DNA of 27,601 bases from a virus: the IMG/VR virus record IMGVR_UViG_3300031688_001544, positions 1 to 27,601 of that record. One strand, written 5' to 3'. Shown one piece after another: positions 6,141 through 25,135 of the stretch. A program made the position numbers and the translations under genes. The number at the start of each line of letters is the position of its first letter. Within the stretch, counting starts at the first letter, position 1. The notes beneath the pieces were generated by a model. The model worked only from the letters and a program-made list of their open reading frames with translations. It ran no database searches and was not told where the DNA came from.

Positions 6141-8144
6141 GCACAAATTAGTGCTGAAAATACTCTTGCCGAAGATAACGATGTAACTATTACGTCCGCC
6201 GCGGATGGTTCAATGTTATTATACGACACAGGTACTTCAAAATGGATCGATAATGTAATGTCTGGTGATGCTACATTAGCAGATACTGGTATTCTAACAA
6301 TTGGATCTGGTAAAATTGATGCAGCAATGCACGCTGCTGGTGGTGTTGATGCTACTGCAATCGGTAACGATGTTGTAAACAGTCAACATATAGCTGCAGA
6401 CTCAATTGATGCAGAGCACTTAGCACCTAACAGTGTTAATACAGATGCTTATATCGATGGTTCAATCGTAACTGCTCACATACTAGCGGATAACATTGAT
6501 GGTACATTGATTGCAGATAACGCAATTGATTCAGAACACTATACAGATGGTTCAATTGACACAGCTCATATTGCAGCAGATCAAATAACAGCAGCCTTGA
6601 TGGCAGACAACTCAATTGATTCTGATATGTATGTGGACGGTTCAATTGATACTGCTCACATTGCAGGTTCACAAATTACAAATGCGTTGATGGCAGATGA
6701 TGCTATTGATTCAGCAGAGATTGCTGCAGGCGCAATTGATCTAGCTCATATGAGTGTAAACTCTATTGGTTCTGATCAATACGTTGACGGTTCAGTATTA
6801 ACTGCTCACATTGGTGCTTCAAATATAACAAATAACTTAATGGCAGATGATGCTGTTGACTCTGCTGAAATTGCGGATGGTGCAGTTGATCTAGTTCACA
6901 TGAGTGCAAACTCAGTAGGCTCTACTCAATATGTTGATGATTCTGTACTAACTGCTCATATCGGTGCTTCACAAATAACAAACACTGAAATGGCTGATGA
7001 TGCTATTGATAGTGCTGAAATCGCAGACGGTGCAATTGATGTTGCTCATATGGCAGCTAACTCAGTTGATAGTGCACAATATGTAGATGGTTCAGTGGAC
7101 AATGTTCACTTAGCTAATTCAAGTATTACAGTTGGTGATGGTTCAAGCACTACAGCTATGGCTCTTGGTTCAACGATTACTTTCGCTGGTACAACTAATG
7201 AGATTGAAGTAGGTGAGAGTGGTGGTACAATCACAGTTGGTTTACCTGATAACGTAACAATCGCTGGTAACTTAACGGTAAGTGGTACAAACACTGCTGT
7301 TTCATCAACTACAATTACTGTTGCTGATTCATTACTTGCTCTAGCTACAAACAATAATTCAGCTGATGCTGTTGACGTTGGTTTCTATGGTTTAATGGAT
7401 ACTACTGGTTCACAAGATGTATACTCTGGTTTATTTAGGGATGCTTCTGATTCAGGTAAGTGGAAAATCTTTAAAGACAACCAAGCAGAGCCTACTACAA
7501 CGGTTAACGTTGCTGGTACTGGTTATGCAATGGGTACATTGGTTGCAAACACTGAAGGTGCAACGGTAACTACTACTGGTAATATTACAGTTGGTGGTAC
7601 GGTTGATGGTCGTGATGTTGCTACTGATGGTACTAAGTTAGATGGTATTGAATCAAATGCAACTGCTGATCAATCATCGGCTCAAATAAGAGTCCATGTT
7701 GAGGCTGCTAGTGACAGTAATGTATTTACTGATGCAGACCATAGTAAATTAAATGCTATTGAAGCTAGTGCAACTGCTGATCAAACTAATGCTGAGATAA
7801 GAACTGCTGTTGAAGCAGCTTCTGATTCGAATGCATTTACAGATGCTGACCACAGTAAACTAAATGCTATTGAAGCTTCAGCTACTGCTGATCAGTCAAA
7901 CAGTGAAATTAGAAATGCTGTTGAAGCTGCTTCTGATTCAAACACGTTTACTGATGCTGATCATTCTAAGTTGAATGCTATTGAGGCAAGTGCAACGGCT
8001 GATCAAACAGCTGCACAAATCTTAACAGCTATTAAGACTGTTGATGGTTCTGGTTCAGGACTTGATGCTGACTTACTAGATGGTCAATCAAGTGCTCACT
8101 TCAGAGTTAACATCTATAACGCTGCGGGATCATTGCTTAACTAA
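5910..8144 (+). CDS. Second tail-fibre / structural repeat protein
   Basis: A 744-aa protein with a good Shine-Dalgarno (AGGAG, 6-7 nt before ATG). The head, KIQGDAGGSGIFTIASP then STNRTITLPDDAGTI, is a module common at the start of marine T4-like phage fibre proteins. It is followed by the DEDN..KAYVD module (from residue 54), a DGSMLLYDTGTSKWIDN segment, a long run of SIDTAHIA / ADNSIDS / YVDGS units with a 50-residue superperiod (about 190-415), a GNLTVSGT module, and a tandem 37-residue DADHSKLNAIEASATADQ array (about 575-707). It ends LDADLLDGQSSAHFRVNIYN and stops, without the tip-like domain of its neighbour. A strong terminator follows, closing the structural unit. Confidence 0.85.
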   Translation: MSKIKIQGDAGGSGIFTIASPNSSTNRTITLPDDAGTIITNAQTDASGYAWLVDEDNMASNLATKVPSQQSVKAYVDAQISAENTLAEDNDVTITSAADGSMLLYDTGTSKWIDNVMSGDATLADTGILTIGSGKIDAAMHAAGGVDATAIGNDVVNSQHIAADSIDAEHLAPNSVNTDAYIDGSIVTAHILADNIDGTLIADNAIDSEHYTDGSIDTAHIAADQITAALMADNSIDSDMYVDGSIDTAHIAGSQITNALMADDAIDSAEIAAGAIDLAHMSVNSIGSDQYVDGSVLTAHIGASNITNNLMADDAVDSAEIADGAVDLVHMSANSVGSTQYVDDSVLTAHIGASQITNTEMADDAIDSAEIADGAIDVAHMAANSVDSAQYVDGSVDNVHLANSSITVGDGSSTTAMALGSTITFAGTTNEIEVGESGGTITVGLPDNVTIAGNLTVSGTNTAVSSTTITVADSLLALATNNNSADAVDVGFYGLMDTTGSQDVYSGLFRDASDSGKWKIFKDNQAEPTTTVNVAGTGYAMGTLVANTEGATVTTTGNITVGGTVDGRDVATDGTKLDGIESNATADQSSAQIRVHVEAASDSNVFTDADHSKLNAIEASATADQTNAEIRTAVEAASDSNAFTDADHSKLNAIEASATADQSNSEIRNAVEAASDSNTFTDADHSKLNAIEASATADQTAAQILTAIKTVDGSGSGLDADLLDGQSSAHFRVNIYNAAGSLLN
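6696..7145 (+). repeat. Tandem 150-nt repeats in second fibre gene
   Basis: In-frame repeats start at 6696, 6846 and 6996, each 150 nt (50 residues: DDAIDSAEIA..GAID..HM..NS.GS.QYVDGSVLTAHIGAS.IT...MA). Each is built from about three 16-17-residue subunits, and weaker copies extend upstream from about 6400. The regular I/V and A positions suggest a repetitive beta or coiled trimeric shaft. Confidence 0.8.
7632..8030 (+). repeat. Tandem 111-nt repeats in second fibre gene
   Basis: DADH-starting units begin at 7731, 7842 and 7953, exactly 111 nt apart (37 residues: DADHSKLNAIEASATADQ, then [N/S]xEIR.AVEAASDSN.FT). A partial copy precedes them from 7632. Related but diverged units occur in the long fibre gene near 3290-3410, 3730-3980 and 5110-5280. 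Confidence 0.8.
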
Positions 8145-8185: not shown

Positions 8186-8193
8186 TATAAATA
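8186..8193 (+). promoter_or_regulatory. T4-type late promoter immediately before ATG
   Basis: An exact TATAAATA 5 nt before the ATG at 8199. With the usual late-promoter spacing, transcription would begin at or beside the A of this ATG, giving a leaderless mRNA. No Shine-Dalgarno fits in the gap. It directly follows the terminator and starts the radical SAM unit. Confidence 0.7.
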
Positions 8194-8198: not shown

Positions 8199-9656
8199 AT
8201 GAAAATGCTTAATGAAAAAGGCTTGCCTACAAGTAACACATTTTGTGCCCTACCATGGGTACATCTCTCAACCAGACCAAATGGACATATGCGTGTATGC
8301 TGTACAGCTAACGCTTCCGGTGTTCAGAATCCAGACTCACAAGATAAAGTAGACTCAGACATTGGTATTCTAAAGAATGATGATGGCATGCCTTCTAATC
8401 TTGCTAATACATCATTAGCTGATGCTTGGAATAATAACTATATGAGAGGCACACGTAAAGCAATGATGAGAGGTGAAAAGCCTGCAAGTTGTATTAAGTG
8501 TTATAAAGAAGAAGATGCTGGACATAGATCTAAGAGGATGTGGGAGACCGATAAATGGATTAAGAAACTCGGTATAGAATCAGTATTAGAAGGATACGAT
8601 CCAGAGAGTGGTCAGGTGCCACCACAAATCCGATACGTGGATCTTCGTTTAGGGAGTAAGTGTCAGTTAGCTTGTGTCATGTGCTCACCTAATGATTCTT
8701 CCGGTTGGATTGTTGAACACAAGAAGATACATCCTAAATTAAAGAACGAAAACTTAGAAAAAACAATGCGTTGGGAGAAGGAAACAGGTAAGCTTGCCTT
8801 TGTAGGTGGTAGTTATGCTTGGCATAAAAAGAATCCTATGTTCTTTGATGAACTCTATGAACAGATACCTAAGCTAAAACAATTGTATTGGGCAGGTGGT
8901 GAACCACTTGTTATGAAAGAACATTATTTATTATTGCAACAAATCATTGATGATGGTTATGCAAGCGAGATTGAAGTGAGATATAATTCAAACGGAATGG
9001 AGTGGGAGCCTGAGCTCTTCGATCTATGGAAGCATTTCAAGGAAGTTATATTTCATTTCTCTATTGATGATATGGGAGATAGGCTTGCTTATATAAGATA
9101 TCCAGCAACCTTCGATCATCTCACTATGAAAATGAGAGAGCTAGATGAATATCCTCATGGAAACCTTAGGCTTACAACAGCTTATACTATACAACTACTA
9201 AACATATGGTCTATACCTGATTTTGTTAAATGGAAATTAACAAACAAATGGAAACTGTTAAACAAATGGCCACAAGGCGGAGGTATGATTGATAATCATT
9301 TAGCATATTGGCCACCACAATTAAACTGTAAGGCATTACCACTGGACTTTAAGAAGAAGGTTACTGAGAAATATGAGGCCTTCTATCCATGGTTAGAGGA
9401 GAACTGGGAACTGTCTGGAGCTCCAAGTAAAGAAGCCTTCATGGAAAATGATTATACTATAAACAGATTAAAAGGTATTGCATCATTTATGAATGCAGAA
9501 GATTGGTCAGTACGATTACCTGAGACTGCTGAATGGTGTTATAGGGTTGCAGAAGAAAGAGGACAGAACTTTGATGAGATCTTTCCAGAGTTATCTTTCT
9601 TACAAGACTATCACACTCCACACCAAGACTTTCCTTTAGTAATTAATACTGGTTAA
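8199..9656 (+). CDS. Radical SAM protein with N-terminal twitch/SPASM-like domain (1)
   Basis: A 485-aa enzyme. The N-terminal cysteine cluster reads CALPW (C16), RVCC (C34, C35) and CIKCYKEE (C98, C101), the layout of the twitch domain that normally follows a radical SAM core but here precedes it. The core has C155-x3-C159-x2-C162 for the SAM-binding [4Fe-4S] cluster and GGEP at 233-236. The C-terminal third continues the barrel and a Trp-rich helical region without further obvious cluster motifs. By family precedent it generates a 5'-deoxyadenosyl radical; the substrate is unknown. The ATG at 8199 abuts a late promoter; an in-frame ATG at 8205 is an alternative. Its stop overlaps the convergent minus-strand gene by 14 nt. 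Confidence 0.85.
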   Translation: MKMLNEKGLPTSNTFCALPWVHLSTRPNGHMRVCCTANASGVQNPDSQDKVDSDIGILKNDDGMPSNLANTSLADAWNNNYMRGTRKAMMRGEKPASCIKCYKEEDAGHRSKRMWETDKWIKKLGIESVLEGYDPESGQVPPQIRYVDLRLGSKCQLACVMCSPNDSSGWIVEHKKIHPKLKNENLEKTMRWEKETGKLAFVGGSYAWHKKNPMFFDELYEQIPKLKQLYWAGGEPLVMKEHYLLLQQIIDDGYASEIEVRYNSNGMEWEPELFDLWKHFKEVIFHFSIDDMGDRLAYIRYPATFDHLTMKMRELDEYPHGNLRLTTAYTIQLLNIWSIPDFVKWKLTNKWKLLNKWPQGGGMIDNHLAYWPPQLNCKALPLDFKKKVTEKYEAFYPWLEENWELSGAPSKEAFMENDYTINRLKGIASFMNAEDWSVRLPETAEWCYRVAEERGQNFDEIFPELSFLQDYHTPHQDFPLVINTG

Positions 9657-10314
9657 AAGCCCAGAACTTCTCTTTACACCACCAACATTTCTTACATGGC
9701 TTAGTAAAGTTTTTAGTAACATCAGCTTGGCCTTCACAAGACCTTGTTAATTTACTTAGTGCTCCAAGGTTTTCTGATTCAAAGCATTGAGCAATAAATG
9801 ATTTGTCATAATTTCTAAATGGTTGAGAGTTATCTGCTCTCCTTGCTCCATCTCTATATACAGGTCTATCATCCCACATCTTATTCTCTTTCATAATAGG
9901 CCTTGCTGGGTTTTTAGTAACAAATCCAAACATTGATTTTAATTTATGCTTCTTCTTGTTATCATCAAATACTGCAACCCAATGTTGCTCTTCAATCTTT
10001 AAACCTGTTTTAGGTGGAGTAGGTATAACAATGTGGGTAATACAAGTCTTAGCTAATTTTAATTCTTTCTCAACCCATGCTATAACCTTTTCGGCATGTG
10101 TGACATTCCAGTCTTTAGCTGCTTGCTTCTTCTTACCTGGGTTATCGTTCTCATCTCTTTGCCATGTAGCAACTACAATCTTAGGTTTAAGTTTATTCTC
10201 TTTAATATGTCTGGCTACAAGGTATAAGCCAAGAGCAGAGTCTAGTCCACCTGACACCCATAACAGTATGTTGCCAGTCTTTGGTAATTCGATATCTATG
10301 TTTTTGTAATTCAT
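9643..10314 (-). CDS. QueC-like PP-loop ATP pyrophosphatase (1)
   Basis: A 223-aa protein, the only clear minus-strand gene. ILLWVSGGLDSALGLYL carries the PP-loop SGGxDS (21-26) of N-type ATP pyrophosphatases. Near the C-terminus, SCEG (C193) followed by PCKKCWWC (C207, C210, C213) matches the zinc site of QueC-type proteins (C...CxxCxxC). Such enzymes adenylate a carboxylate or carbonyl oxygen and release pyrophosphate. True QueC makes preQ0, but no other deazaguanine genes are recognisable here, so I infer a different substrate. A paralogue lies at 16233. It has its own minus-strand late promoter (10352-10345), giving a 25-nt leader without Shine-Dalgarno. It converges on the radical SAM gene at 8199. 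Confidence 0.8.
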   Translation of the reverse strand: MNYKNIDIELPKTGNILLWVSGGLDSALGLYLVARHIKENKLKPKIVVATWQRDENDNPGKKKQAAKDWNVTHAEKVIAWVEKELKLAKTCITHIVIPTPPKTGLKIEEQHWVAVFDDNKKKHKLKSMFGFVTKNPARPIMKENKMWDDRPVYRDGARRADNSQPFRNYDKSFIAQCFESENLGALSKLTRSCEGQADVTKNFTKPCKKCWWCKEKFWAFNQY

Positions 10315-10321
10315 ATAAATA
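10314..10321 (+). promoter_or_regulatory. T4-type late promoter, plus strand, of a divergent pair
   Basis: An exact TATAAATA whose first base is also the first base of the opposite gene's start codon. Expected initiation near 10327 gives a 25-nt leader before the ATG at 10352. Confidence 0.7.
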
Positions 10322-10344
10322 AAAGTATTGATTAACTTATAATA

Positions 10345-10352
10345 TATTTATA
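10345..10352 (-). promoter_or_regulatory. T4-type late promoter, minus strand, of a divergent pair
   Basis: The plus strand reads TATTTATA, i.e. TATAAATA on the minus strand. Expected initiation near 10339 gives a 25-nt leader before the minus-strand ATG at 10314. Its last base lies in the ATG of the plus-strand gene, so each promoter sits inside the other gene's leader. Confidence 0.65.
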
Positions 10353-11704
10353 TGGAAACTAAAGCTAAAGATACTTTCTGTCCACTTCCTTGGAACTCAA
10401 TAAACCTAAGAAATAACGGTGACATGCGCATCTGTTGTAATACAAACTCGTATTCGCCACAACGTGGTATAATGAAGAACGAAGAAGGTGAAACATATAA
10501 TGCTGGTAAGCATGATTTTAATGAGGCACGTAATGCACAGATATTAAAAGATGTTCGTAAAGATATGCTTAAAGGTGAATGGAATCCAGAGTGTGAACGT
10601 TGCAGGCAAGAAGAAGTAAACGGTATTCCATCTCGTCGTCAATATGAGAATAACGATTGGGATATAAAATTAGATACAGCTATTCCAATCACTCAGGAAG
10701 ATGGAACTCTTGATGTAGATAAACAACTAATAGAATTCATTGATATACGTTATGGTAATTTCTGTAATCTTAAATGTAGAATGTGTGGACCAACTGATTC
10801 ACATATGTGGTACCCAGACTTTATTAAACTTACAGATGGTAAGGTAACAGGTTATAATGATACACATACTCGTATAGAACTACATCAAAATGAAAGAGGT
10901 AAATGGATTACTGATCAGTACGATTGGTTTAAAGATGCGCCAATCTATTGGAATAACTTTGAGAAGTACGCACATGATGCAAAGAAACTTTATATCGTTG
11001 GTGGTGAACCTTTAATTATTGCTGAACATGAAAAGAGTTTACAACTATTAGTTGATGGTGGTAAAGCACATAACATAGAGATAGAGTATAACTCTAACCT
11101 AACAAATGTAACACCTAAGTACTTAAAGCTATGGGCAGAGTTTAAACAGATTCGTGTAGGTGCATCCGTAGATGGATTCGGTAAGGTATTTGATTACCAA
11201 CGTACACCAGCTAAATGGAAATCTGTATATGGTCAAATGAAAAAGCTTAATGACAATAGAGATATTAATCTAAAGTGTTGGTTTACATTTACTGTTACAC
11301 CTTATAATGTATATCATATGCCTGAGTTTATGAAATGGAAATTAGAAGAGAGTGAGTTAGATAGATATAATCCTATCGATGGTATGAGACCAACTATAAC
11401 TCAGCATATGTGTCACTCACCTAAGTACTATAACATTAAAGTATTACCTCAACATCTTAAAGATGATATTGAAGATCACTATGAATTATATAAATCATGG
11501 GTTGATGGTACTGATTATTCGGATAATGTCAAGCGACACTTTCATGAGGTCTGTGATTCCACAATAAGATTTATGCAGTCTGAGTCTTATGAAAAAGATC
11601 ACCTACAAGGATTCATTGATATAACAAACAAGCTTGATAAGATTCGAGGACAAGATGTAAGAGAAATTGTTCCTGAGTATATCGAGATGTTTGATGCACA
11701 CTAA
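10352..11704 (+). CDS. Radical SAM protein with N-terminal twitch/SPASM-like domain (2)
   Basis: A 450-aa enzyme with the same permuted layout as the gene at 8199: CPLPW (C10), RICC (C28, C29) and CERCRQEE (C81, C84), then the SAM-cluster motif C138-x3-C142-x2-C145 in NFCNLKCRMCGP, and GGEP downstream. SVDGFGKVFDYQR is a conserved barrel segment also seen in other members here (SIDGTGDVFEHQR at 11694, SMDGTGKLFEYFR at 13827). The product is an oxidoreductase, transferase or modifying enzyme with unknown substrate. It heads a run of overlapping plus-strand genes; its last 11 nt overlap the next start. The promoter is the divergent late promoter at 10314. Confidence 0.85.
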   Translation: METKAKDTFCPLPWNSINLRNNGDMRICCNTNSYSPQRGIMKNEEGETYNAGKHDFNEARNAQILKDVRKDMLKGEWNPECERCRQEEVNGIPSRRQYENNDWDIKLDTAIPITQEDGTLDVDKQLIEFIDIRYGNFCNLKCRMCGPTDSHMWYPDFIKLTDGKVTGYNDTHTRIELHQNERGKWITDQYDWFKDAPIYWNNFEKYAHDAKKLYIVGGEPLIIAEHEKSLQLLVDGGKAHNIEIEYNSNLTNVTPKYLKLWAEFKQIRVGASVDGFGKVFDYQRTPAKWKSVYGQMKKLNDNRDINLKCWFTFTVTPYNVYHMPEFMKWKLEESELDRYNPIDGMRPTITQHMCHSPKYYNIKVLPQHLKDDIEDHYELYKSWVDGTDYSDNVKRHFHEVCDSTIRFMQSESYEKDHLQGFIDITNKLDKIRGQDVREIVPEYIEMFDAH

Positions 11705-12632
11705 GCCTTATTGTAAGGCACCGTGGGTAGCATTACAATATACAGCACTAGAAGGGTGTAAGCCATGTTGTGAATGGAAAGGTGATTTTTATAAAGGTAA
11801 TGTAAAAGATTATTATGCATCAGATTATTTAAAAGAGTTTAAGTCTTACATGCATGCAGATACAATGCATGATAATTGTAAGGAATGTGTGGACATTGAA
11901 GATAGGGGTGGTGATTCACGTAGATTAAAGTACATGCAATATCATATACCTCATGGCCTACAAAAATTAGACTATAGGCCTGGTAACAAATGTAATCTAA
12001 AATGTATAATGTGTGGCCCAGAGAATTCATCTATGTGGGAAGACGCTGAGAATATAACATTAGATAAATTAGATACATCAGATATACATGACCTGGACTT
12101 TAGTAAGTTACACAAGGTTATGATACTCGGTGGTGAACCATCAATCGATTTGAAAGTACGTGAATTCCTAAAGACCATACAAGACTTAGATTGTTATATA
12201 GGAATAACTGTTAATGCAACCAACGCATCAGACAAATGGTTTAATACATTAAAAAGTTTAAAGACAAACAAATTAGAGATAGCTTTATCAATTGATGGCA
12301 CGGGTGATGTGTTCGAACATCAACGTGAAGGTGCTAATTGGCTTATGGTAAAAGAGAATATAATAAAATACAAAGAGAATTTTAGAAATGTTATTATACA
12401 AGTAACAGCAACTAACTATAACTATCCATTAATACACGAATGGTGGGATGAGTTGCTTTCGTTTGATATAGACATATGGCAAAGCGTATGTTATATGCCA
12501 GACAAGTATGCACTTAAAACCATAGAAGATAAGGTAAGTATAATTAATTGGTTAATGGAGTGGCGTAAAACAGCCCCTGAAAACAAATATAAATATGTTG
12601 ATGAGGCAATTAATATGTTGAGAGTGGCGTGA
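11694..12632 (+). CDS. Radical SAM protein with N-terminal twitch/SPASM-like domain (3), short form
   Basis: A 312-aa protein from the ATG at 11694 (a TTG 27 nt upstream is possible but overlaps the previous gene further). N-terminal cysteines: CKAPW (C7), CKPCC (C22, C25, C26), CKEC (C62, C65); core C100-x3-C104-x2-C107 in NKCNLKCIMCGP; then LGGEPS and SIDGTGDVFEHQR. At about 310 residues it is the most compact of the set, lacking the C-terminal extension of the proteins at 8199 and 10352. A TATAAATA box lies in its last codons (12588). The next gene starts at GTG overlapping its stop (GTGA). Confidence 0.82.
   Translation: MHTKPYCKAPWVALQYTALEGCKPCCEWKGDFYKGNVKDYYASDYLKEFKSYMHADTMHDNCKECVDIEDRGGDSRRLKYMQYHIPHGLQKLDYRPGNKCNLKCIMCGPENSSMWEDAENITLDKLDTSDIHDLDFSKLHKVMILGGEPSIDLKVREFLKTIQDLDCYIGITVNATNASDKWFNTLKSLKTNKLEIALSIDGTGDVFEHQREGANWLMVKENIIKYKENFRNVIIQVTATNYNYPLIHEWWDELLSFDIDIWQSVCYMPDKYALKTIEDKVSIINWLMEWRKTAPENKYKYVDEAINMLRVA
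12588..12595 (+). promoter_or_regulatory. Possible intragenic T4-type late promoter
   Basis: An exact TATAAATA within the 3' end of the radical SAM gene at 11694, 33 nt before the GTG start at 12629. Expected initiation near 12601 would give a 28-nt leader, similar to the divergent pair. In such AT-rich DNA a chance match in coding sequence is possible. Confidence 0.45.
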
Positions 12633-13837
12633 AAGATAACGGTGTAGTATGTATGTTACCTTGGGTACACACAACAGTGAGTATGAAAAATACTTTGAGG
12701 CCGTGCTGTAGATTTAAAGTAGGTAAGGAAGACGAAGTTAAATCTGAAGATGATATCGAAGATATTAAAGATAAATTCAGATGGCTACGTAAAGAAATGC
12801 TTGCAGGTAATGAAGTAGATCAGTGTTCACTATGTTATCAACAAGGTGACAAGTCTATGAAGTGGACAGCCAACAAAGAATTTGATTTAGAAAATGCTGA
12901 GTTAACAGAAGACTTTGATGTATTAAGATCAGTAGAGTTATCCCTAGATAACCTATGCAACCTACAATGTAAGATGTGTGATTCTTTATTCTCAAGTAAA
13001 CTATATGATAGAGACAAGTATCTAATAGAGGTACACAACCTTCGTGGCAGAAATCCACAGAAGATACCTAAACAAAGAATTGAATTTCTTAAAGGTCTTG
13101 ATATAGATTGGCATGCATTAGAACATATTAAAATTCTTGGCGGTGAACCATTCTTCTCACCTAACTTTCCTAAGCTAATCGATTTCTTATTAGAACATTC
13201 TGAAGTAAAGAATGTAACATTAGAGATTGTAACGAATAGCACAAAGAGATTAGATCAAGATATGATTGATAAGTTAAATCAATTTGGTTGGATAATACTT
13301 ACATGTTCTCTCGATGGTTGTAATGAATTTAATACATATCAACGTTGGGGTTCACCTGGATGGCAAGAGACATTAGACACATATCTTTGGTATCATTCAG
13401 TTCTAAATAATATGGTTAAAAAACATATACATTCTACGTATACTATTCTTAATCTATCTGGCCTTGCCGATGATATGAAATACTGGGAGAATAATTATCC
13501 TGAGTGGAGTGTGTCATTTAACTTTGTTAATATGGGTGAGTATTCACCATATAATGCTCCGACATGGTACACAAATTGGATCTTAGAACAGTGGGGAGAT
13601 AAACACAACGAGAGAATATCTTTAGCTCGTAAGATGTTTAGTGAGAACCAAGTTGAATATAAACCATGGAAGACATGGGGATTAGCTATGTTAAAGCTTC
13701 ATGCTATTGATGGATACTATGATTCAGAATTAGGTGACTATTGTCCTGAGCTAGAAACATTATTATTAAAACATGATAAGACATATCAGCATAATCAGTA
13801 CTATGAAACACTAGAGGATTTTAATTATGAAATGTAG
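12629..13837 (+). CDS. Radical SAM protein with N-terminal twitch/SPASM-like domain (4)
   Basis: A 402-aa protein starting at GTG (GTGA overlap). N-terminal cysteines: CMLPW (C8), RPCC (C26, C27), CSLCYQQG (C66, C69); core motif C110-x3-C114-x2-C117 in NLCNLQCKMC; LGGEPFF follows and SLDGCNEFNTYQR marks the later barrel. The C-terminal 100 residues are rich in Trp and Tyr with one isolated Cys pair candidate (GDYCPELE), too little for an extra cluster call. Family chemistry is radical SAM; the substrate is unknown. The next gene overlaps by 11 nt. Confidence 0.83.
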   Translation: MKDNGVVCMLPWVHTTVSMKNTLRPCCRFKVGKEDEVKSEDDIEDIKDKFRWLRKEMLAGNEVDQCSLCYQQGDKSMKWTANKEFDLENAELTEDFDVLRSVELSLDNLCNLQCKMCDSLFSSKLYDRDKYLIEVHNLRGRNPQKIPKQRIEFLKGLDIDWHALEHIKILGGEPFFSPNFPKLIDFLLEHSEVKNVTLEIVTNSTKRLDQDMIDKLNQFGWIILTCSLDGCNEFNTYQRWGSPGWQETLDTYLWYHSVLNNMVKKHIHSTYTILNLSGLADDMKYWENNYPEWSVSFNFVNMGEYSPYNAPTWYTNWILEQWGDKHNERISLARKMFSENQVEYKPWKTWGLAMLKLHAIDGYYDSELGDYCPELETLLLKHDKTYQHNQYYETLEDFNYEM

Positions 13838-15023
13838 ATATGCATCATCGCATTTAGATTTCAAGAAGGGTGGATATGCCCCATGCTTTAGGTTTAAAAA
13901 TACTAGTGATGTTCAAAGACATAATTATTGGATGGGATCTGGTTCTGATAAATTACCAAGTCAAGTGATAAACAATAAAGACTTTCAAGATGTCAGAGAA
14001 CAACTACGTAATGACATATGGCCTGCGGGTTGTATAGACTGTAAGACACAAGAAGAAGCTGGCATGTCATCATACAGGACCAGATCATTGGATAATGCTA
14101 TGGACTATTCACCAGTAGATTATGATAGTAACATAGTTGTAATAAAAGATTTACAATTAAAGATGTCACGTGCTTGTAATTATACTTGTCGTCATTGTGA
14201 CTCAGCATCTAACTCCTCATTTGAAAAGCTAGGTCGTCAATTCCCTGAGATAGAGAATGAATTAAAAACTAAATATCAATTTAGTCATATATCTCCAGCA
14301 GGTGATAAGAAGATTATTATACCAACAGACGAAGTAATGGAAGATCTTTATGAAAATGTTTTTCCTACAATAGAACAACTTGAATTTTCTGGTGGTGAAC
14401 CTTTTTATCAAATTGAAATGTACAAAGTATTACAACGATTAATAGATCACCCAAATATTGATACAACTAAAATGAGATTAGTTTATAATTCTAATATGAG
14501 TCAGTTAACTCATAAGGGATATTCAGTAAAAGAATTATTTCCACACTTTGGGCAAGTACATATCACAGTTTCGATGGATGGTACTGGTAAATTGTTTGAA
14601 TACTTTAGAGAGGGTGGCAATTGGGATAACGTTATAAATAACATTAAAGAGATTGCACCGCTTGTAACACAATTTTTATTTGTGTGTACCACATCTTCAT
14701 ATCAAGCTTTTTACATGAATGAAATATATAAAGATTTAACAGAATTAAAAGAATCAATACCTGAGACACGTGTACAGATACGTGCAACATTTGTTCATTG
14801 GCCTAAAGCAATGGATATAGTAAACCTTGAAGAAGAAACTAAAACTAAAATAATGGAAACATTAGAGATAAATGATTTTACTAAAGAGTTTGCTATACGA
14901 ATGACAAGCTCTGACAATGAAATAGAGCCATGCTTCAAAGGTCTAGTAAAGACCCAAGATCTATTATACGATAGATCATGTGAAGAAGGTGCACCTAAAA
15001 TATATGAGTATATATGCAATTAA
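13827..15023 (+). CDS. Radical SAM protein with divergent N-terminal twitch domain (5)
   Basis: A 398-aa protein with a Shine-Dalgarno AGAGGA 8 nt before its ATG. The core motif is C117-x3-C121-x2-C124 (ACNYTCRHC), followed by SGGEPFY and SMDGTGKLFEYFR. The N-terminal domain is altered: it opens MKCRYASSHLDFKKGG with C3, has a single C20 (APCFRF) where the relatives have CC, and lacks the PW pair; C69 and C72 (CIDC) are kept. The twitch cluster would therefore have four rather than five nearby cysteines. It may bind a cluster with a different open site, or only three or four ligands. It overlaps both neighbours by about 10 nt. Confidence 0.8.
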   Translation: MKCRYASSHLDFKKGGYAPCFRFKNTSDVQRHNYWMGSGSDKLPSQVINNKDFQDVREQLRNDIWPAGCIDCKTQEEAGMSSYRTRSLDNAMDYSPVDYDSNIVVIKDLQLKMSRACNYTCRHCDSASNSSFEKLGRQFPEIENELKTKYQFSHISPAGDKKIIIPTDEVMEDLYENVFPTIEQLEFSGGEPFYQIEMYKVLQRLIDHPNIDTTKMRLVYNSNMSQLTHKGYSVKELFPHFGQVHITVSMDGTGKLFEYFREGGNWDNVINNIKEIAPLVTQFLFVCTTSSYQAFYMNEIYKDLTELKESIPETRVQIRATFVHWPKAMDIVNLEEETKTKIMETLEINDFTKEFAIRMTSSDNEIEPCFKGLVKTQDLLYDRSCEEGAPKIYEYICN

Positions 15024-16231
15024 CTATTGAAGTAACCTCTAATTGTCAGGCTCAATGCCCTGGTTGTATTCGTAAAAACGTAATGAATCCAACAACCGGT
15101 GAGGTTGGTTATACTAAAGGTGTTCCTAAGAATGTGAACATGTCTGTTGAAGCACACAATAGATTAATAGATGAGGCAGGAGAAGCTTTAACTTGGGTAA
15201 GTTATGATGGAGGCTTTGGTGATTCACCACTACACCCGCAGTTCTTAGAGCTAATAGAACACACAGTATCTAAACCTCAAATAGAAATTATTGCTATATC
15301 AACTAATGGTTCATATCAAACCGAGAAGTTTTGGTTTAAGCTTGGGCAGATTCTTTCTAAAAGTAAGGCAGTCAATAAGGATTTTATTCACGATGGTGAT
15401 ACTTTCTTAGATGCTGACGGTAATCCAGATAAGAATAATAGAATACAATATGGTCATTTAGTATTTTGGGATTTAGATGGTGTTGATAATGAATCACAGA
15501 ATAAGTATAGAGTTAAAACAAATTTCGATAGGATCATTCGTAATGCTAAAGCCTTTATAGCTGGTGGTGGTTATGCTGTATGGAAGATGATTCCATTTGA
15601 CTTCAATGAAGAATTAGAAGAGCGTGGGATGGAGTTAGCAAATGAACATGGCTTTGCAGAATTTAGAAGAACACGAACACATAGATTAGAACAATCAGCA
15701 ACACTACTTGCTTTAGCAGAAGCTCAAGGTATAGATCCTAAAGAATTAAATGATGGTGAAATAAATAGAGCATCTGATAAATTAATTAAGAAAAATGCAG
15801 ATGCTGGTAAAACATTAATACAAGATATAGTAATAGATCCTAAAAAATCTCCAATGCAAAATATGGATATAGCAAAAGAGAAGGCAGGTATTACGTGCCA
15901 ATGGGCAAACGTAGAAGGTGGTGGTAATTACCAAGTCAGTCATGATGGATCTGTATGGAGATGCTGTTGGCATAACTCAGCCTATCAATTTAGAACTAAG
16001 TTAAACACCGGTGATAGAGATGGATGGGAAAGATTTGTGCGGTTCTATGATGATAATTGGAACGACATAAATACTCACAGCTTCCAAGAAATTATAAGCC
16101 ATGATTTTTTTACCACAGATTTATATGAAAGCTTTGACAACGATTACGATGATCCTATTAATCCAAAGTTAAAGGTATGTACAAAGAGATGTTCTAATTT
16201 AAATTTAACAGAGAGTGAGAGGTTTTGCTAG
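15014..16231 (+). CDS. Radical SAM protein with C-terminal SPASM/twitch-like domain (6)
   Basis: A 405-aa enzyme in the usual domain order. The core begins at once: EVTSNCQAQCPGC gives C11-x3-C15-x2-C18. C-terminal auxiliary-cluster cysteines are C295 (ITCQWANV), C317 and C318 (WRCCW), C389 and C393 (KVCTKRC), plus a terminal C405. The CxxxxD-G-xxxxCCW pattern also occurs in the gene at 17120, so those two form a subgroup. Residues about 125-160 hold a charged insertion rich in Asp/Asn (DGDTFLDADGNPDKNN). The substrate is unknown. It is followed by a QueC-like gene 1 nt after its stop if that gene starts at ATG 16233. Confidence 0.8.
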   Translation: MQLTIEVTSNCQAQCPGCIRKNVMNPTTGEVGYTKGVPKNVNMSVEAHNRLIDEAGEALTWVSYDGGFGDSPLHPQFLELIEHTVSKPQIEIIAISTNGSYQTEKFWFKLGQILSKSKAVNKDFIHDGDTFLDADGNPDKNNRIQYGHLVFWDLDGVDNESQNKYRVKTNFDRIIRNAKAFIAGGGYAVWKMIPFDFNEELEERGMELANEHGFAEFRRTRTHRLEQSATLLALAEAQGIDPKELNDGEINRASDKLIKKNADAGKTLIQDIVIDPKKSPMQNMDIAKEKAGITCQWANVEGGGNYQVSHDGSVWRCCWHNSAYQFRTKLNTGDRDGWERFVRFYDDNWNDINTHSFQEIISHDFFTTDLYESFDNDYDDPINPKLKVCTKRCSNLNLTESERFC

Positions 16232-16232
16232 T

Positions 16233-17120
16233 ATGATAATAAATGATAAAAGTATTATATATGATAAAGATGTATTGAAAGATGAATGGAATATAGAATT
16301 AAACTTAAGTTATGATCATGCGTTAGTCGGTATGTCAGGAGGAATGGATTCATCTATTCTATTTTGGATGTTAGCTCATCATATTAATGAGAACAATTTA
16401 AATATTACATTACATGCCTATACATGCATCCATGAAGAGAGACCATGGCAACATATTCATGCAAAGAAAGTAATTGCATATGTAAAATCTGAATTTCCTA
16501 ATGTTAAATTTGGGGTACATGCAATTAATACCACACCAGCAAAGGACTATGTAGCATCTGGAACTACGTTACAATGGAAGACTAGTCGCGAGATAGCTAA
16601 AGAAGGTGGATCAGTAGGTACATACAGTGGTGTGACACTTAACCCACCAGATAGTATAGGTAAACCTATATGGAAAGACGCATGGCCTCGTCGCGCTATG
16701 AATAGGAATGCAGAAACTATTGCTGATTGGGATGTTGATGGAGAATTTATTGAGCATAACAATCCAAGTTTTCATGAGAGAGCTGGTATAGAATGGATAG
16801 CATCTGATTTTAATATGGACTCAGCAGATTCTGATGCTCATCATCAAAGTGCGAGAGACAATAATCACTATCATATTCAACATTATCCATTTTGTATATT
16901 AGATAAGCGTGTAGTACTTGCCTTCTATAAAAAGTATGGCCAGCTGGTATCGTTAGGTGAATTAACTAATTCGTGCGAAGGTCATATTACTATGAGAGGT
17001 GAACCTAAATTTTCAAAGCCTTGTCATTGGTGTTGGTGGTGTATAGAAAAAGAATGGGCAACCTCATATGTATTTAATTATGATGCCAATGTATCAATGA
17101 AAGACTGGCCAGATAGATAA
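16233..17120 (+). CDS. QueC-like PP-loop ATP pyrophosphatase (2)
   Basis: A 295-aa protein from ATG 16233, preceded by GAGAGG about 10 nt upstream (an in-frame GTG at 16215 would add 6 residues). VGMSGGMDSSILFWML contains SGGxDSS (35-41), the PP-loop. The C-terminal zinc-type cysteines are C248 (NSCEG), C264, C267 and C270 (PCHWCWWC), followed by EKEWA, matching the minus-strand paralogue (SCEG..PCKKCWWCKEKFWA). It has a His-rich stretch (SDAHHQSARDNNHYHIQH) absent from the paralogue. It is predicted to activate a carboxylate-like group with ATP. It is sandwiched between two radical SAM genes, overlapping the next by one base (TAATG), so a joint pathway is likely but inferred. Confidence 0.8.
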   Translation: MIINDKSIIYDKDVLKDEWNIELNLSYDHALVGMSGGMDSSILFWMLAHHINENNLNITLHAYTCIHEERPWQHIHAKKVIAYVKSEFPNVKFGVHAINTTPAKDYVASGTTLQWKTSREIAKEGGSVGTYSGVTLNPPDSIGKPIWKDAWPRRAMNRNAETIADWDVDGEFIEHNNPSFHERAGIEWIASDFNMDSADSDAHHQSARDNNHYHIQHYPFCILDKRVVLAFYKKYGQLVSLGELTNSCEGHITMRGEPKFSKPCHWCWWCIEKEWATSYVFNYDANVSMKDWPDR

Positions 17121-18169
17121 TGTATAGTTACTCTGACATAAAGCAAGTACATCTTGAACCGACACAGAAATGTCAAGCTAGATGCCCTATGTGTGATAGG
17201 AATGAAAACGGTGGTAAAGATAATAAGTATCTAACTAACGCTGACCTATCATTACTTGATGTACAGACAATGATGCCAGAAGCATTCGTAAACCAGCTTG
17301 AGAACCTCTATATGTGTGGTAACCATGGTGATCCGATGATGGCACCTGAAGCATTAGAGATAGCTCAATGGTTAAAGAAAGTTAACCCTAAAATAAGACT
17401 TGCCATGAATACAAATGGTGGTGCACGTACACCTGACTGGTGGGCGAAGATGGCGAAGGTCATGGATCATGTAACTTTCTCTGTTGATGGTCTTGATGAC
17501 ACTAATCATTTATATAGACAAGGTGTAAGTTGGGATAAGGTAGAAGAGAACATGGCTGCATTTTGTGATGCAGGTGGAATTGCTAAATGGGAATTCCTAG
17601 TATTCAAACATAATGAACATCAAATAGAAGAGGCCAGACTCTGGTCAGATACACTTGGTGTAACGACTTTTAGTGTGAAGAAGTCAGGCAGATATATATC
17701 TGCTGCAACATTAACTAAAAAAGATTCACACCAATCGAAGGATAGACATGAACAAAACACACAACTCTTGGAGCCACCTACTATGGCGCGCTTTAAAAAC
17801 GCAGCAAGCAAGGACTTTGATAACATTTCTGCTAAATTTGGGAACATGGATACTTATTTGGATGTGGCTGACATAGACTGTAAAGCTATTACAAAGAAAG
17901 AGATCTATATCTCAGCTGAAGGATTTGTATTCCCTTGTTGTTGGACAGCAGGTCAAATGTATAAGTGGTGGCAAAAACCTGGTGAGGCACAGATATGGGA
18001 ACATATAGATCAGTTTGATATTAATGCTATAAATACACCAATAGAAAAGATAGTCAATACATTCTTTAACTCAATAGAGGAAGCATGGGAAGTTGGCCCT
18101 AACCGATTAAAGGTTTGTGCCCTTAAATGTAATAAGAAGTTTGACCCGTTCGCAGCTCAGTGGCAATAG
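17120..18169 (+). CDS. Radical SAM protein with C-terminal SPASM/twitch-like domain (7)
   Basis: A 349-aa enzyme. The start ATG shares one base with the upstream stop. The core motif C18-x3-C22-x2-C25 lies in PTQKCQARCPMCDR; the usual GGEP is replaced by MCGNHGDPMM, an acceptable variant of the SAM-binding strand. SVDGLDDTNHLYRQG follows. Auxiliary cysteines: C254 (IDCKA), C273 and C274 (FPCCW), C333 and C337 (KVCALKC). It is similar in plan to the gene at 15014. Radical SAM enzymes of this layout commonly modify peptides or sugars; which one cannot be told here. The next gene starts at GTG overlapping its last 10 nt. Confidence 0.82.
   Translation: MYSYSDIKQVHLEPTQKCQARCPMCDRNENGGKDNKYLTNADLSLLDVQTMMPEAFVNQLENLYMCGNHGDPMMAPEALEIAQWLKKVNPKIRLAMNTNGGARTPDWWAKMAKVMDHVTFSVDGLDDTNHLYRQGVSWDKVEENMAAFCDAGGIAKWEFLVFKHNEHQIEEARLWSDTLGVTTFSVKKSGRYISAATLTKKDSHQSKDRHEQNTQLLEPPTMARFKNAASKDFDNISAKFGNMDTYLDVADIDCKAITKKEIYISAEGFVFPCCWTAGQMYKWWQKPGEAQIWEHIDQFDINAINTPIEKIVNTFFNSIEEAWEVGPNRLKVCALKCNKKFDPFAAQWQ
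18028..18035 (+). promoter_or_regulatory. Possible intragenic T4-type late promoter (weak case)
   Basis: An exact TATAAATA near the end of the radical SAM gene at 17120, about 125 nt before the next start. It encodes ordinary residues (AINTP) and may be a chance match. Confidence 0.25.
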
Positions 18170-18894
18170 GAAATACAATACTGTTAACCTGGCCTTGTGG
18201 CTCTGGTGGTGATATGGTCAGAACTTGTCTATATCCGTTACTGCATAAAGGTAATTGGGAATATAAACAATTAGATCGTGGGATGAATGGGTATATTGTT
18301 AAACACGGATTAACATGGAATGATAATTTAATATCTTTTGTTGATGAAGTTGGTCAAGCACAAACACCTATTATGTGGACAAGAGATGGTGATGATTATA
18401 TAGATGACACTGGCCAGTCAGATATATTTAAAATTATATTTAGTATCCATAAACGTCATCATTATGAAAACAATATTGAACAGTTAGCAGATCGTTGTAA
18501 GGAAGCATATGTGCTTGATGCGTTACATCCCGTTGTTACTTTTATTTGTGTGAAAGACAATAGGTTATATGAAGTATCTAAAAAGAATTGGTTACTAAAA
18601 ACATTTGATAATAGTTTAAATAAAGGTGTTGAGATAGATGTTGAAAGAAAGAATATGGATGACACCATTAAATGGAGAGAAGACAATCCAGATAGAGCTA
18701 ATCATAATTTTTATGAGTTAGGTGATAGAAAGCATATGATGTTTATGGATAACTTCTTCGATTGGGAATCATTTAAATGGGAACTAATAAGCTTCTGCGG
18801 TGTTTATGATAGAGAATGTCATATAGAAAACTTACCAGTAGTTAAACAATTTTGGCAGGCATGGAGAGATGAGCAAAGAATTAAAGTGGAGTGA
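18160..18894 (+). CDS. GxGGD-motif protein, paralogue 2 (unknown; possibly sulfotransferase-like)
   Basis: A 244-aa protein from a GTG overlapping the previous stop by 10 nt. TILLTWPCGSGGDMVRT (about 6-22) gives a hydrophobic strand followed by G14-S-G-G-D18. The C-terminus, DNFFDWESFKWELISF then PVVKQFWQAW, matches the 26612 protein (DSIYNWESYEAELKKY, HLVKEFWSKW), so these two are full-length paralogues. A strand plus GxGG loop at the N-terminus and a late helix with xWESxxxEL are reminiscent of sulfotransferase-like P-loop proteins, but the usual lysine is missing. Function is not assignable from sequence alone. The following radical SAM gene starts 26 nt before its stop. Confidence 0.6.
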   Translation: MAIGNTILLTWPCGSGGDMVRTCLYPLLHKGNWEYKQLDRGMNGYIVKHGLTWNDNLISFVDEVGQAQTPIMWTRDGDDYIDDTGQSDIFKIIFSIHKRHHYENNIEQLADRCKEAYVLDALHPVVTFICVKDNRLYEVSKKNWLLKTFDNSLNKGVEIDVERKNMDDTIKWREDNPDRANHNFYELGDRKHMMFMDNFFDWESFKWELISFCGVYDRECHIENLPVVKQFWQAWRDEQRIKVE

Positions 18895-19999
18895 GTATGA
18901 CTTCGGTCAAGTACCCTTTGATGACATACAGCACTTCGGTACGAGGTCTATGTTGGATAGGGATACGTTTACCGTGTCTTGGCTCCTAGGAAGATTCTGT
19001 AATTACAAGTGTTCTTACTGCTGGCCGTATGCTAGATCAGATAAGAAAGATCATAGACCACTTGCAGCAACCATAGGAACTATAGATGAAATCAAAAGAC
19101 AAGCTAGAGAAAGAGGATTTAATTCGTTTCACTTCTCACTTTCGGGAGGCGAACCGACATTTCATCCGAGCTACCTCGATATTGTACGCCACCTTAATAA
19201 CGATATGCCTAATTGTAACTTTCATAGTTTACACATGACATCAAATGTTTCTCGTAACATGAAATGGTTCGAGGAATATTATCAAGCATCTAAAGATATG
19301 AATAGAGTATCTATCACTGCATCCTATCATAGGGAACATGTTAACACACCTAAGAAGGTAAGTGAGTTCGCAGACAAATTAGAATTCTGTCAGTCACGTA
19401 ATATACAGATTACTATTAATATGGTTATGGTACCTGAGTTCTTTGAAGAGTTTTATGAAGAGGCATTATACTTTCATGAACGTGGTATCAATGTAACACT
19501 TAAACCACAGAGTGATCCTACAGCTTCATTTGTTGTTGATGGATATACTGATGATCAGTTATCAAGACTACACAATGGTATGCCACAAAGAGGATACACT
19601 ACAGCCAAATCTAAAGTTGAAAGACCTCATTATAAATGGAGAGATGCTGCAGTAGATAATCAGTATGGTAAAGTACCTGCTCACTTTGAAATAGAATTAA
19701 CTGATAGTAAGGGTAAGAAATATTATATTGATCAAGCAGAGAGACTGAATGCATTTAACTTTAATAACTTTAAAGGATGGGAATGCTCATCAGGTTATAG
19801 AAGTATTATTATAAGAGAGCCTGATGGTACAATCAAAAGAAGTTACTCATGTCATGATGAGCCATTAGGTCAAATAGAAACTGGGTTTAAATTATATGAT
19901 GGACCCAAGATATGTACAACAAGTGCTTGCGTATCTTCAGCTGATAGTAAGATACCTAAACGTAAGCCAGGGAATGTGATACCATTATGGACGGTATAG
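18869..19999 (+). CDS. Radical SAM protein with C-terminal SPASM-like cysteines (8)
   Basis: A 376-aa protein. The core motif C44-x3-C48-x2-C51 lies in GRFCNYKCSYC, and SLSGGEPTFHP (GGEP 93-96) follows. The C-terminal region has C306 (WECSSGYRS), C328 (YSCHDEPLG), C349 and C354 (ICTTSACVSS), an auxiliary cluster region unlike that of the genes at 15014 and 17120. It forms a third architectural type in the locus. PDGTIKRSYSC is typical of the SPASM hairpin before the cluster. Substrate unknown. It overlaps the preceding gene by 26 nt and the next small gene by 13 nt if that starts at 19987. Confidence 0.82.
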   Translation: MSKELKWSEYDFGQVPFDDIQHFGTRSMLDRDTFTVSWLLGRFCNYKCSYCWPYARSDKKDHRPLAATIGTIDEIKRQARERGFNSFHFSLSGGEPTFHPSYLDIVRHLNNDMPNCNFHSLHMTSNVSRNMKWFEEYYQASKDMNRVSITASYHREHVNTPKKVSEFADKLEFCQSRNIQITINMVMVPEFFEEFYEEALYFHERGINVTLKPQSDPTASFVVDGYTDDQLSRLHNGMPQRGYTTAKSKVERPHYKWRDAAVDNQYGKVPAHFEIELTDSKGKKYYIDQAERLNAFNFNNFKGWECSSGYRSIIIREPDGTIKRSYSCHDEPLGQIETGFKLYDGPKICTTSACVSSADSKIPKRKPGNVIPLWTV

Positions 20000-20217
20000 A
20001 AGGCCTTATAAATACTTTTGAGATGCGAGAACTTCAACTCGAGGCTGCTCTAGTAATAAGCTCACATAATGCAAACAATATTTGGATAAAACAATTTAAA
20101 GCAGATCATAACTCGGAGGAGTTTTATAAGAATGTCATCAAATGGTATATTAATGAATACGGAGGACTTCCTAGCGAAGTTGGACCCGGAAATAAAATTC
20201 CACTTCTTTACGTTTAA
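19987..20217 (+). CDS. Small protein of unknown function
   Basis: A 76-aa reading frame from ATG 19987. An in-frame ATG at 20023 follows a TATAAATA box by a few bases and may be the real start (64 aa). I do not recognise it. It is acidic and helical in appearance (ELQLEAALVISSHN, EEFYKNVIKWYINEYGG) with no cysteine and no signal peptide. It overlaps the next gene by 86 nt in another frame, unusually long here, so either the next gene starts later or this frame is partly non-coding. Position between a radical SAM gene and a glycosyltransferase-like gene makes it a possible substrate or carrier peptide, but nothing in its sequence requires that. Confidence 0.45.
   Translation: MDGIEGLINTFEMRELQLEAALVISSHNANNIWIKQFKADHNSEEFYKNVIKWYINEYGGLPSEVGPGNKIPLLYV
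20007..20014 (+). promoter_or_regulatory. Possible T4-type late promoter before ATG 20023
   Basis: An exact TATAAATA inside the first codons of the 76-aa frame. Expected initiation near 20020 would give only a 3-nt leader before the in-frame ATG at 20023, close to the leaderless arrangement at 8199 and 24508. Confidence 0.45.
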
Positions 20218-20941
20218 GTGGGGTGATAAGTATGGACCAGAATATGTTAACAGATTATACGGTAGTCTTGTAAAATATTGTGATGTCCCTTTTGCTTTCA
20301 CTTGTATTACTGACAATCCTGATGGGATACGTCCTGAAGTACTTCTTTTAGATTACAATCAAATAGGTCCAGACTCTTGGAGAGCTTACGGTCAAGATAA
20401 AATCTTTACTCGTGAGAAACTGTGCCTAATGGATCTAGATATTCCTGGTACAATAGGTTGGATTGATTTAGATGTATTGATTACAACGGAAGTAACATCT
20501 ATGGTGACACGTGACTTTAAGAAGCCTACCTTTATTCTCAATCATTGGAATATGGATAAAGAAAACTCTTTCAAATGGTTTGGTAAAGGATCTGATTGCC
20601 ATGTGAATAGTAGCTTTGTTATGTGGAAAGATGATGTAGCGCAATGGCTATTTGATTACACTGATAAGAATCTAGAGAAGCTAATGTTCACTTATAAATC
20701 TTTAGATAAATACTTATATTACCAGCATTGGCGTACAGATAGATTAGCATTTTGGGAAGAAGGTTTAGTAGATAATTATAATTTTAGTGAGCCACAGTAT
20801 GAAGAAAGAAAGGAAGTGAGGATAACTTTATTTAATACCTCACATATTATTATACAAAATATGGATATAGAAGCATACGAGTTACATGAAACAGAAGGTA
20901 TGTGGCCATGGGATCATTGGGTGAGTTATGACAAAAGTTGA
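20132..20941 (+). CDS. GT-A-like glycosyltransferase (DxD type), paralogue 2
   Basis: A 269-aa protein with a strong GGAGGAG about 10 nt before ATG 20132; ATG 20153 is an alternative in the same frame. FTFKWGDKYGPEYVNRLYGSL (about 26-46) parallels the first glycosyltransferase-like protein (VTVKWGDKYTVDDVNKLYYS), and GWIDLDVLI holds DLD at 112-114. CHVNSSFVMWKDD corresponds to its INSSVMLFWNDE segment. It carries about 20 extra N-terminal residues, mostly within the overlap with the small upstream frame. Function is inferred as sugar transfer from a nucleotide sugar; the acceptor is unknown. The next gene overlaps by 14 nt. Confidence 0.68.
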   Translation: MSSNGILMNTEDFLAKLDPEIKFHFFTFKWGDKYGPEYVNRLYGSLVKYCDVPFAFTCITDNPDGIRPEVLLLDYNQIGPDSWRAYGQDKIFTREKLCLMDLDIPGTIGWIDLDVLITTEVTSMVTRDFKKPTFILNHWNMDKENSFKWFGKGSDCHVNSSFVMWKDDVAQWLFDYTDKNLEKLMFTYKSLDKYLYYQHWRTDRLAFWEEGLVDNYNFSEPQYEERKEVRITLFNTSHIIIQNMDIEAYELHETEGMWPWDHWVSYDKS

Positions 20942-25134: not shown

Positions 25135-25135
25135 T

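Follow-up and report, generated by a model that had tools for sequence, protein, structure and literature searches.

Radical SAM genes of a marine virus

IMG/VR virus record IMGVR_UViG_3300031688_001544 comes from an uncultured marine virus of bacteria, and the window analysed here is that whole 27.6-kb record (27,601 nucleotides). Within 11.8 kb it holds eight intact radical S-adenosylmethionine (SAM) genes, called here rSAM 1 to rSAM 8 and starting at positions 8199, 10352, 11694, 12629, 13827, 15014, 17120 and 18869 (Table 1). A six-frame search with PF04055 returned exactly eight matches in the window (E 1.5e-17 to 1.3e-5), none with an internal stop. Six pass the curated cut-off of 29.5 bits as six-frame domains and seven of the eight pass as whole proteins, among them rSAM 1 at 33.3 bits; rSAM 6 stays below it at 23.7 bits despite its CX3CX2C core. 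All eight proteins carry this core, at residues 155, 138, 100, 110, 117, 11, 18 and 44, exactly where the original prediction, a reading of the letters alone, had placed it. In shuffled versions of the same 23 open reading frames (ORFs), the motif appeared in a mean of 0.05 and a maximum of 2 proteins over 500 runs. The three architectures that the prediction described are also borne out: five proteins have an N-terminal auxiliary cysteine domain, rSAM 6 and rSAM 7 begin with the core and finish in a CCW...CxxxC domain, and rSAM 8 finishes in four cysteines. The extra cysteines present in all eight proteins are consistent with a predicted auxiliary iron–sulfur (Fe–S) cluster.

The eight proteins are mutually 19–33% identical and are therefore not recent copies, leading us to reject recent tandem duplication. 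Models of named rSAM equivalogs, including MoaA, PqqE, QueE, NirJ and viperin, all score far under their cut-offs, and a viperin-like antiviral role for rSAM 8 was set aside because its profile match is weak (PDB E 5.5e-4). NF033640 (N_Twi_rSAM, twitch domain-containing radical SAM protein; cut-off 170 bits), a sequence subfamily without an assigned reaction, takes in only rSAM 1, 2, 4 and 5. Scores below the cut-off keep out the other four: rSAM 3 comes close at 152 bits, and rSAM 7 (57 bits), rSAM 8 (35 bits) and rSAM 6 (no score) lie outside it. A nucleotide search of phage records with the whole window gave zero matches.

Between 10352 and 20217, the end of each gene runs 1–26 nt into the start of the next, in line with the mostly adjacent or overlapping genes first described, and this arrangement reads as the layout of a translationally coupled operon. 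The T4-type late-promoter-like sequence TATAAATA occurs in 10 copies against 4.75 expected, a count reached in 1 of 100 shuffles, and its intergenic copies lie before 8199, before 10352 (plus strand), before 10314 (minus strand) and before 24508. The claim that all eight genes follow late promoters thus holds for the enrichment and for rSAM 1 and rSAM 2, but no intergenic promoter of this type precedes the inner rSAM genes, which are therefore reachable only by operon read-through. The operon is probably transcribed late. A gap of 54 nt separates the end of the last tail fibre gene from the start of rSAM 1.

A maintained core with exchangeable accessories

The closest long relative of the window, the 94-kb contig G003, has the same genes in near-identical order and one additional rSAM gene, and relatives in general retain the gene content and much of the order at 43–95% identity, with conserved order followed from 95% down to about 50%. 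Between the window and G003, dN/dS is 0.057 for rSAM 1, 0.080 for rSAM 2, 0.093 for rSAM 7 and 0.113 for rSAM 8, and these core genes are under strong purifying selection; the accessory genes at 11694, 16215 and 18160 have values of 0.35–0.50. The original prediction had named a shifting gene order and decaying genes as outcomes that would count against it. Instead, order is kept in relatives, and with internal stops absent and dN/dS low, decay into pseudogenes is rejected. It had also raised a lack of full barrels in most proteins, and here the answer is partial: the AF2 model of rSAM 1 is confident (pLDDT 91, pTM 0.90) and shows the full rSAM barrel, a partial TIM-barrel fold, whereas the other seven proteins rely on PF04055 matches and have no confident model, that of rSAM 8, built from nine sequences, being poor (pLDDT 54). 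Invariant positions in 79 phage and bacterial N_Twi proteins are the four auxiliary cysteines ahead of the core (C16, C34, C98 and C101), the three core cysteines, a GGE motif, N265, S288 and R300; the auxiliary cysteines are predicted to bind a cluster.

A scan with the rSAM 8 family listed at least 80 viral loci, some of them near copies, at 64–90% identity over nearly the full length of the protein; later locus counts are drawn from the matches listed, with ORFs in related loci called mechanically by a simple longest-ORF picker. The same protein has zero matches in 50,697 phage records. Fifty records among the listed matches contain 5–24 PF04055 matches each, and in most loci the rSAM 8 gene adjoins several other rSAM genes. 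It is a signature of these arrays. Genes of the rSAM 1 and rSAM 2 type stand beside it in 57 of 76 loci, and adjacent same-strand rSAM-like pairs are usually less than 30 nt apart (169 of 178 pairs in 80 related loci). Scanning with rSAM 2 found 23 viral loci, and the 22 records searched contain 2–11 PF04055 matches each. An A-type Fe–S carrier (PF01521) is encoded in 8 of 15 related records searched, and nitroreductases, aspartyl/asparaginyl hydroxylases and PP-loop/QueC proteins recur among 115 non-rSAM array proteins. VrlC has its best matches in Pelagibacter phages (36%); a capsid gene with relatives among jumbo-phage genes is present in other records with rSAM 8.

Several families in these arrays encode the catalytic core and the Fe–S domain as separate genes, an arrangement that appears new. 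The split enzymes consist of a short catalytic core (236–246 aa) and a separate cysteine-rich Fe–S-domain protein (108–163 aa). One pair (c51 and c52) occurs in L090, L093, L098 and L102 and another (c29 and c21) in L091, L092, L110, L119 and L122; in L090 and L093 the halves are not a frameshift, because an entire other rSAM gene sits between them. A similar pair is found in a Bdellovibrionales genome (L198, 17363–18513). In L014 (18718–19822) and related loci, a core of the rSAM 7 type is followed in another frame by a stand-alone CCW...C Fe–S domain protein; this arrangement, which 8 loci show in 6 distinct sequences, may be a third split or a programmed frameshift.

The scans also returned phage-like contigs (L054, L059, L073, L075, L077, L078 and L079) in metagenome-assembled genomes (MAGs) named Rickettsiales, Neisseriaceae, Planctomycetota, Acidimicrobiaceae, Chloroflexi and Gammaproteobacteria. 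These are probably mis-binned viral contigs; that of L054, at 46,940 bp, is the same size as the IMG/VR contig of L114.

The core triad in Bdellovibrionota

A scan of genome contigs identified 36 loci, mostly in Bdellovibrionota MAGs, in which orthologues of rSAM 1, rSAM 7 and rSAM 8 often lie within a few kb of each other. To avoid locus-discovery bias, we searched 291 Bdellovibrionota genomes with each family separately, placing orthologue cut-offs at clear gaps in the E-value lists. rSAM 8 is present in 17 of the 291 genomes; the rSAM 1 orthologue occurs in 15, all inside those 17, and the rSAM 7 orthologue in 16, of which 15 are inside. Fisher tests of co-occurrence give 3e-23 for rSAM 1 with rSAM 8 and 4e-22 for rSAM 7 with rSAM 8, values that overstate the evidence because phylogenetic independence does not hold among the genomes. 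Even so, the three genes plainly form a unit.

At 22 bacterial rSAM 8 loci, neighbours include a DxD-motif family (11 loci), the family of the 21362 gene (8), the aminotransferase family (5) and an enzyme of the rSAM 2 type (5). Both the DxD family (8 loci) and the 21362 family also adjoin phage arrays, and the DxD family includes a 920-aa protein beside some arrays that was first read as a tail fibre. In the Bdellovibrionales chromosome L198, a 308-aa protein without a family match (10389–11315), encoded beside the rSAM 8 orthologue, has a start that reads like a phage tail protein. In a tree of rSAM 8, the main phage set (73 rows and two viral-looking MAG-contig sequences) forms one clade (support 100/99), bacterial sequences lie deeper under midpoint rooting and two phage sequences group with bacteria, which suggests a bacterial origin, with the root placed by midpoint only.

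The host recognition cluster could instead be a hot spot that gathers unrelated, exchangeable rSAM genes acting on separate substrates, with no single pathway. Turnover of the accessory genes, with dN/dS of 0.35–0.50 at 11694, 16215 and 18160, fits this picture, as do the range of 5 to 24 rSAM genes per record and the swapping of modules of five rSAM genes between phages CP220 and CPt10 (PMC2853527). We nevertheless consider it improbable, since the core triad stays together across viral and bacterial lineages, gene order is conserved and the genes are tightly coupled. There is good support for a multi-enzyme module that is maintained, its core fixed and its accessories exchangeable. The dedicated multi-step pathway first proposed stands in so far as order and content, selection, tight coupling and the bacterial triad argue for it; a fixed eight-step pathway does not, as the core is constant and the accessories vary with lineage.

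Other genes of the window

Features of the window are collected in Table 1. Downstream of the rSAM operon (22120–22770 and 23549–27600) lie a desaturase-like protein, whose family is present in 20 related viral loci, and several 2-oxoglutarate dioxygenases of the TauD and aspartyl hydroxylase types. Three proteins (313–1779, 18160–18894 and 26585–27244), two of them visibly alike and none with a family match, share an N-terminal glycine-rich motif that suggests a P-loop or sulfotransferase-like protein.

Table 1. Genes and promoter-like elements of the 27,601-nucleotide window
Feature	Position	Strand	Evidence
Glycosyltransferase-family protein (w2), family of 20132 gene	1776..2447	+	phrog_1962 glycosyltransferase E 1.9e-13; hit list common with w17
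Tail fibre-like protein	2546..2824	+	PHROGs tail families E 9e-10
Tail fibre protein	2827..5895	+	phrog_24456 tail fiber E 1.9e-29
Tail fibre protein	5910..8144	+	phrog_21412 tail fiber E 3.2e-78
T4-type late-promoter-like TATAAATA, precedes rSAM 1	8186..8193	+	Consensus match only
rSAM 1 (w6), core enzyme; predicted N-terminal auxiliary Fe–S domain C16/C34/C98/C101, barrel C155/C159/C162	8199..9656	+	NF033640 391 bits; AF2 pLDDT 91; Bdellovibrionota orthologues E <= 1e-175
PP-loop ATPase, QueC-like (w7)	9643..10314	-	Weak PF06508 E 1.2e-3; phrog_1550 QueC-like E 3.5e-6; family in 49/104 phage loci
Late-promoter-like TATAAATA, precedes rSAM 2	10314..10321	+	Consensus match only
Late-promoter-like TATAAATA, divergent, precedes PP-loop gene	10345..10352	-	Consensus match only
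rSAM 2 (w8), N_Twi type	10352..11704	+	NF033640 359 bits; 23 viral loci, 43–93% identity
rSAM 3 (w9), N_Twi-like, fast-evolving or replaced	11694..12632	+	NF033640 152 bits (< 170); dN/dS 0.42
rSAM 4 (w10), N_Twi type	12629..13837	+	NF033640 184 bits; dN/dS 0.11
rSAM 5 (w11), N_Twi type	13827..15023	+	NF033640 219 bits
rSAM 6 (w12), N-terminal core, C-terminal CCW...CxxxC auxiliary domain	15014..16231	+	PF04055 23.7 bits (below cut-off); Cys 295/317/318/389/393
PP-loop ATPase (w13), family of 9643 gene	16215..17120	+	Weak PF01171 E 1.8e-4; hit set equals that of w7
rSAM 7 (w14), core enzyme, C-terminal SPASM-like Cys	17120..18169	+	PF04055 51.7 bits; Bdellovibrionota orthologues E <= 1e-150
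Protein without family match (w15), related to 26585–27244, fast-evolving	18160..18894	+	dN/dS 0.50
rSAM 8 (w16), signature enzyme; C-terminal Cys 306/328/349/354	18869..19999	+	PF04055 56.2 bits; at least 80 viral loci at 64–90% identity; 17/291 Bdellovibrionota genomes
Conserved 76-aa protein (wS), overlaps rSAM 8 end	19987..20217	+	Homologues in 9 loci, end-to-end conservation
Glycosyltransferase-like (w17), true start probably near 20195	20132..20941	+	Family of w2
Rossmann/methyltransferase-like (w19), also adjoins bacterial triads	21362..22129	+	Alignment; family in 17 phage and 10 bacterial loci, 8/22 bacterial w16 loci; fold class from motif only
Fatty-acid desaturase-like membrane protein	22120..22770	+	PF00487 E 8e-8
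PLP-dependent aminotransferase-like (w21)	22749..23576	+	Profile match to aminotransferase 3if2 E 5e-5; 33 phage and 7 bacterial loci
TauD-type 2-oxoglutarate dioxygenase	23549..24499	+	PF02668 E 4e-23
Aspartyl/asparaginyl hydroxylase-like dioxygenase (w23)	24508..25134	+	PF05118 E 1e-7; family in 49 phage loci

The two QueC-like PP-loop proteins of the window, together with the PP-loop/QueC members that recur in related arrays, raise the idea of a nucleoside or base modification (7-deazaguanine-like) of phage DNA or tRNA. We regard this as very unlikely: the best QueE model reaches about 21 of 260 bits, so no rSAM protein passes the QueE cut-off, other queuosine-pathway genes were not recognized in the window, the PP-loop/QueC matches of the window proteins are weak and below cut-off, and the set is located in a late structural region.

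Proteins of the family encoded directly after rSAM 8 are 73–76 aa long, share the motif HNS..WY...GPGK, have no family match and adjoin rSAM arrays in 9 loci. A small phage peptide, or several, could be the substrate of a pathway like those for ribosomally synthesized and post-translationally modified peptides (RiPPs), to be released as an antimicrobial or signal; in favour, rSAM-rich clusters with accessory nitroreductases, methyltransferases and acetyltransferases resemble natural-product clusters, and the conserved 76-aa protein comes right after rSAM 8. The 76-aa family, however, is conserved end to end and confined to 9 loci, and none of 30 related records has a PqqD-type recognition domain, which a control search does find in bacteria. 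Clustering of small ORFs in the arrays yielded no family in which a variable core follows a conserved leader, although a distant or very short precursor could escape such clustering. A RiPP-like product therefore seems unlikely to us.

Candidate substrates of the operon

The original prediction held that no substrate could be assigned; a substrate class can be proposed from context. The probable target of the virus operon is a sugar-bearing surface molecule, which it would build or decorate. The eight rSAM genes would encode functional enzymes belonging to a tailoring module that has spread horizontally, with a constant core of rSAM 1, rSAM 7 and rSAM 8, usually joined by rSAM 2, and with glycosyltransferase-like proteins, the Rossmann protein of the 21362 family, an aminotransferase, PP-loop ATPases and 2-oxoglutarate dioxygenases as partners; additional rSAM genes would vary between lineages. 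The enzymes would each carry a catalytic [4Fe–4S]–SAM cluster plus one or more auxiliary clusters, with loading provided in part by the A-type Fe–S carrier that related phages encode elsewhere. They would abstract hydrogens from successive intermediates, and the most likely product would be a modified glycoconjugate (a sugar chain or a sugar-bearing anchor) displayed by the infected cell or by the tail fibres whose genes lie just upstream.

Glycosyltransferase-type neighbours in phages are one reason to propose a glycoconjugate, and the window itself contains a PHROG glycosyltransferase family. The other is the cultured Vibrio phage K566, in which GT8 and GT4-like genes are interleaved with four rSAM genes of the N_Twi type, close to an annotated PagP. 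The 21362 and DxD families beside the bacterial triads, the latter also beside phage arrays, add to this glycan context. A surface location is suggested by the tail fibre genes directly upstream of the array and by G003, in which VrlC at 43773 (36% identical to Mosig VrlC) is followed by tail fibres and then the array; the window ends short of VrlC. Arrays of other lineages have a tail sheath gene (L028) or tail fibre genes (L113 and L145) as neighbours.

The same surroundings give rise to the strongest rival, in which the enzymes epimerize, crosslink, methylate or hydroxylate the upstream-encoded tail fibre proteins themselves, diversifying or hardening the adhesin. Tail fibre genes stop just ahead of rSAM 1, tail genes adjoin arrays in other lineages, aspartyl/asparaginyl hydroxylase-like genes, of a protein-modifying type, recur, and peptide-modifying enzymes are among the nearest folds. 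Modification of the fibre proteins would leave the glycosyltransferase-type genes unexplained, and around the bacterial triads there is ordinary chromosome without recognized tail genes; many arrays, moreover, have no tail gene within 8 kb, which tells against tail fibre modification and against a surface glycoconjugate alike. We rate modification of the fibre proteins as rather unlikely.

Several further points weigh against glycoconjugate tailoring. Known SPASM/twitch enzymes mostly act on peptide or protein substrates. The model of rSAM 1 aligns over the rSAM barrel with BlsE, DesII, SkfB, CteB, MoaA and SuiB at Z of about 11–12, a mixture of RiPP maturases (SkfB, CteB and SuiB) and carbohydrate or nucleoside enzymes that tie in Z, and the fold therefore decides neither for a peptide nor for a carbohydrate substrate. 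The DxD family has zero matches to solved structures and PHROG; as profile searching gives no support, we rejected it as a proven glycosyltransferase, and its label reflects the motif only. Finally, the accessory set is highly variable, and a single shared product is not assured. On balance, a core pathway with exchangeable tailoring enzymes acting on an envelope or virion glycoconjugate is a tentative reading, to which we give a little less than an even chance.

Discussion

Density of rSAM genes in phages is not itself new. The original prediction took none, one or two such genes per phage as usual, which passes over phages already published with many, and the phenomenon is known in outline (PMC2853527, PMC5332604 and PMC7029224). 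The Campylobacter T4-like phages CP220 and CPt10 encode 11 and 12 rSAM proteins, including an exchangeable module of five (PMC2853527). Like the window, these cultured phages have many rSAM genes; unlike it, their modules carry a putative glycine amidinotransferase. rSAM 8 matches no phage record, rSAM 1 and rSAM 2 match no Campylobacter phage, and the bacterial triad is undescribed for these phages. TARA_ERS488813_N000010, a 183-kb uncultured marine T4-like genome, has 12 rSAM genes and an A-type Fe–S carrier gene (PMC5332604). Relatives of the window likewise encode such carriers, but that genome was explained only in terms of Fe–S metabolism, and its core, gene order and bacterial counterpart were not described (PMC5332604). 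In pelagimyophages, the host recognition cluster is a variable island beside VrlC with tail fibres, glycosyltransferases and rSAM cassettes, a layout that G003 matches exactly; in the portion of the source consulted, the cassettes are mentioned merely as insertions and no function is proposed (PMC7029224). The cultured Vibrio phages K566 and K567 and the KVP40 rSAM protein offer further N_Twi-type genes, but at only about 25% identity, and no orthologue of rSAM 7 or rSAM 8 scored in them.

Within a limited search of open-licence literature, we did not find the core, its bacterial counterpart, numbers of up to 24 or split enzymes described, and these appear new. Together they may represent an unrecognized virus-borne system, in which a fixed three- or four-enzyme rSAM core is shared with predatory Bdellovibrionota and large uncultured phages add up to about 20 rSAM enzymes, some split into catalytic and Fe–S proteins, that diversify one class of surface glycoconjugate; we consider this conceivable but somewhat doubtful.

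With up to 24 rSAM genes per viral contig and at least 16 Fe–S clusters predicted for this operon, the chemistry is expensive, and its retention by a virus therefore implies a strong benefit. The core is small, conserved and also present in bacterial genomes, and its reaction can therefore be studied in a few genes instead of in a whole uncultured virus, which opens a puzzle known since 2010 to direct testing. Should a surface glycoconjugate prove to be the substrate, these arrays would give phages a new means of altering host or virion surfaces and would form a large, still unexplored pool of enzymes.

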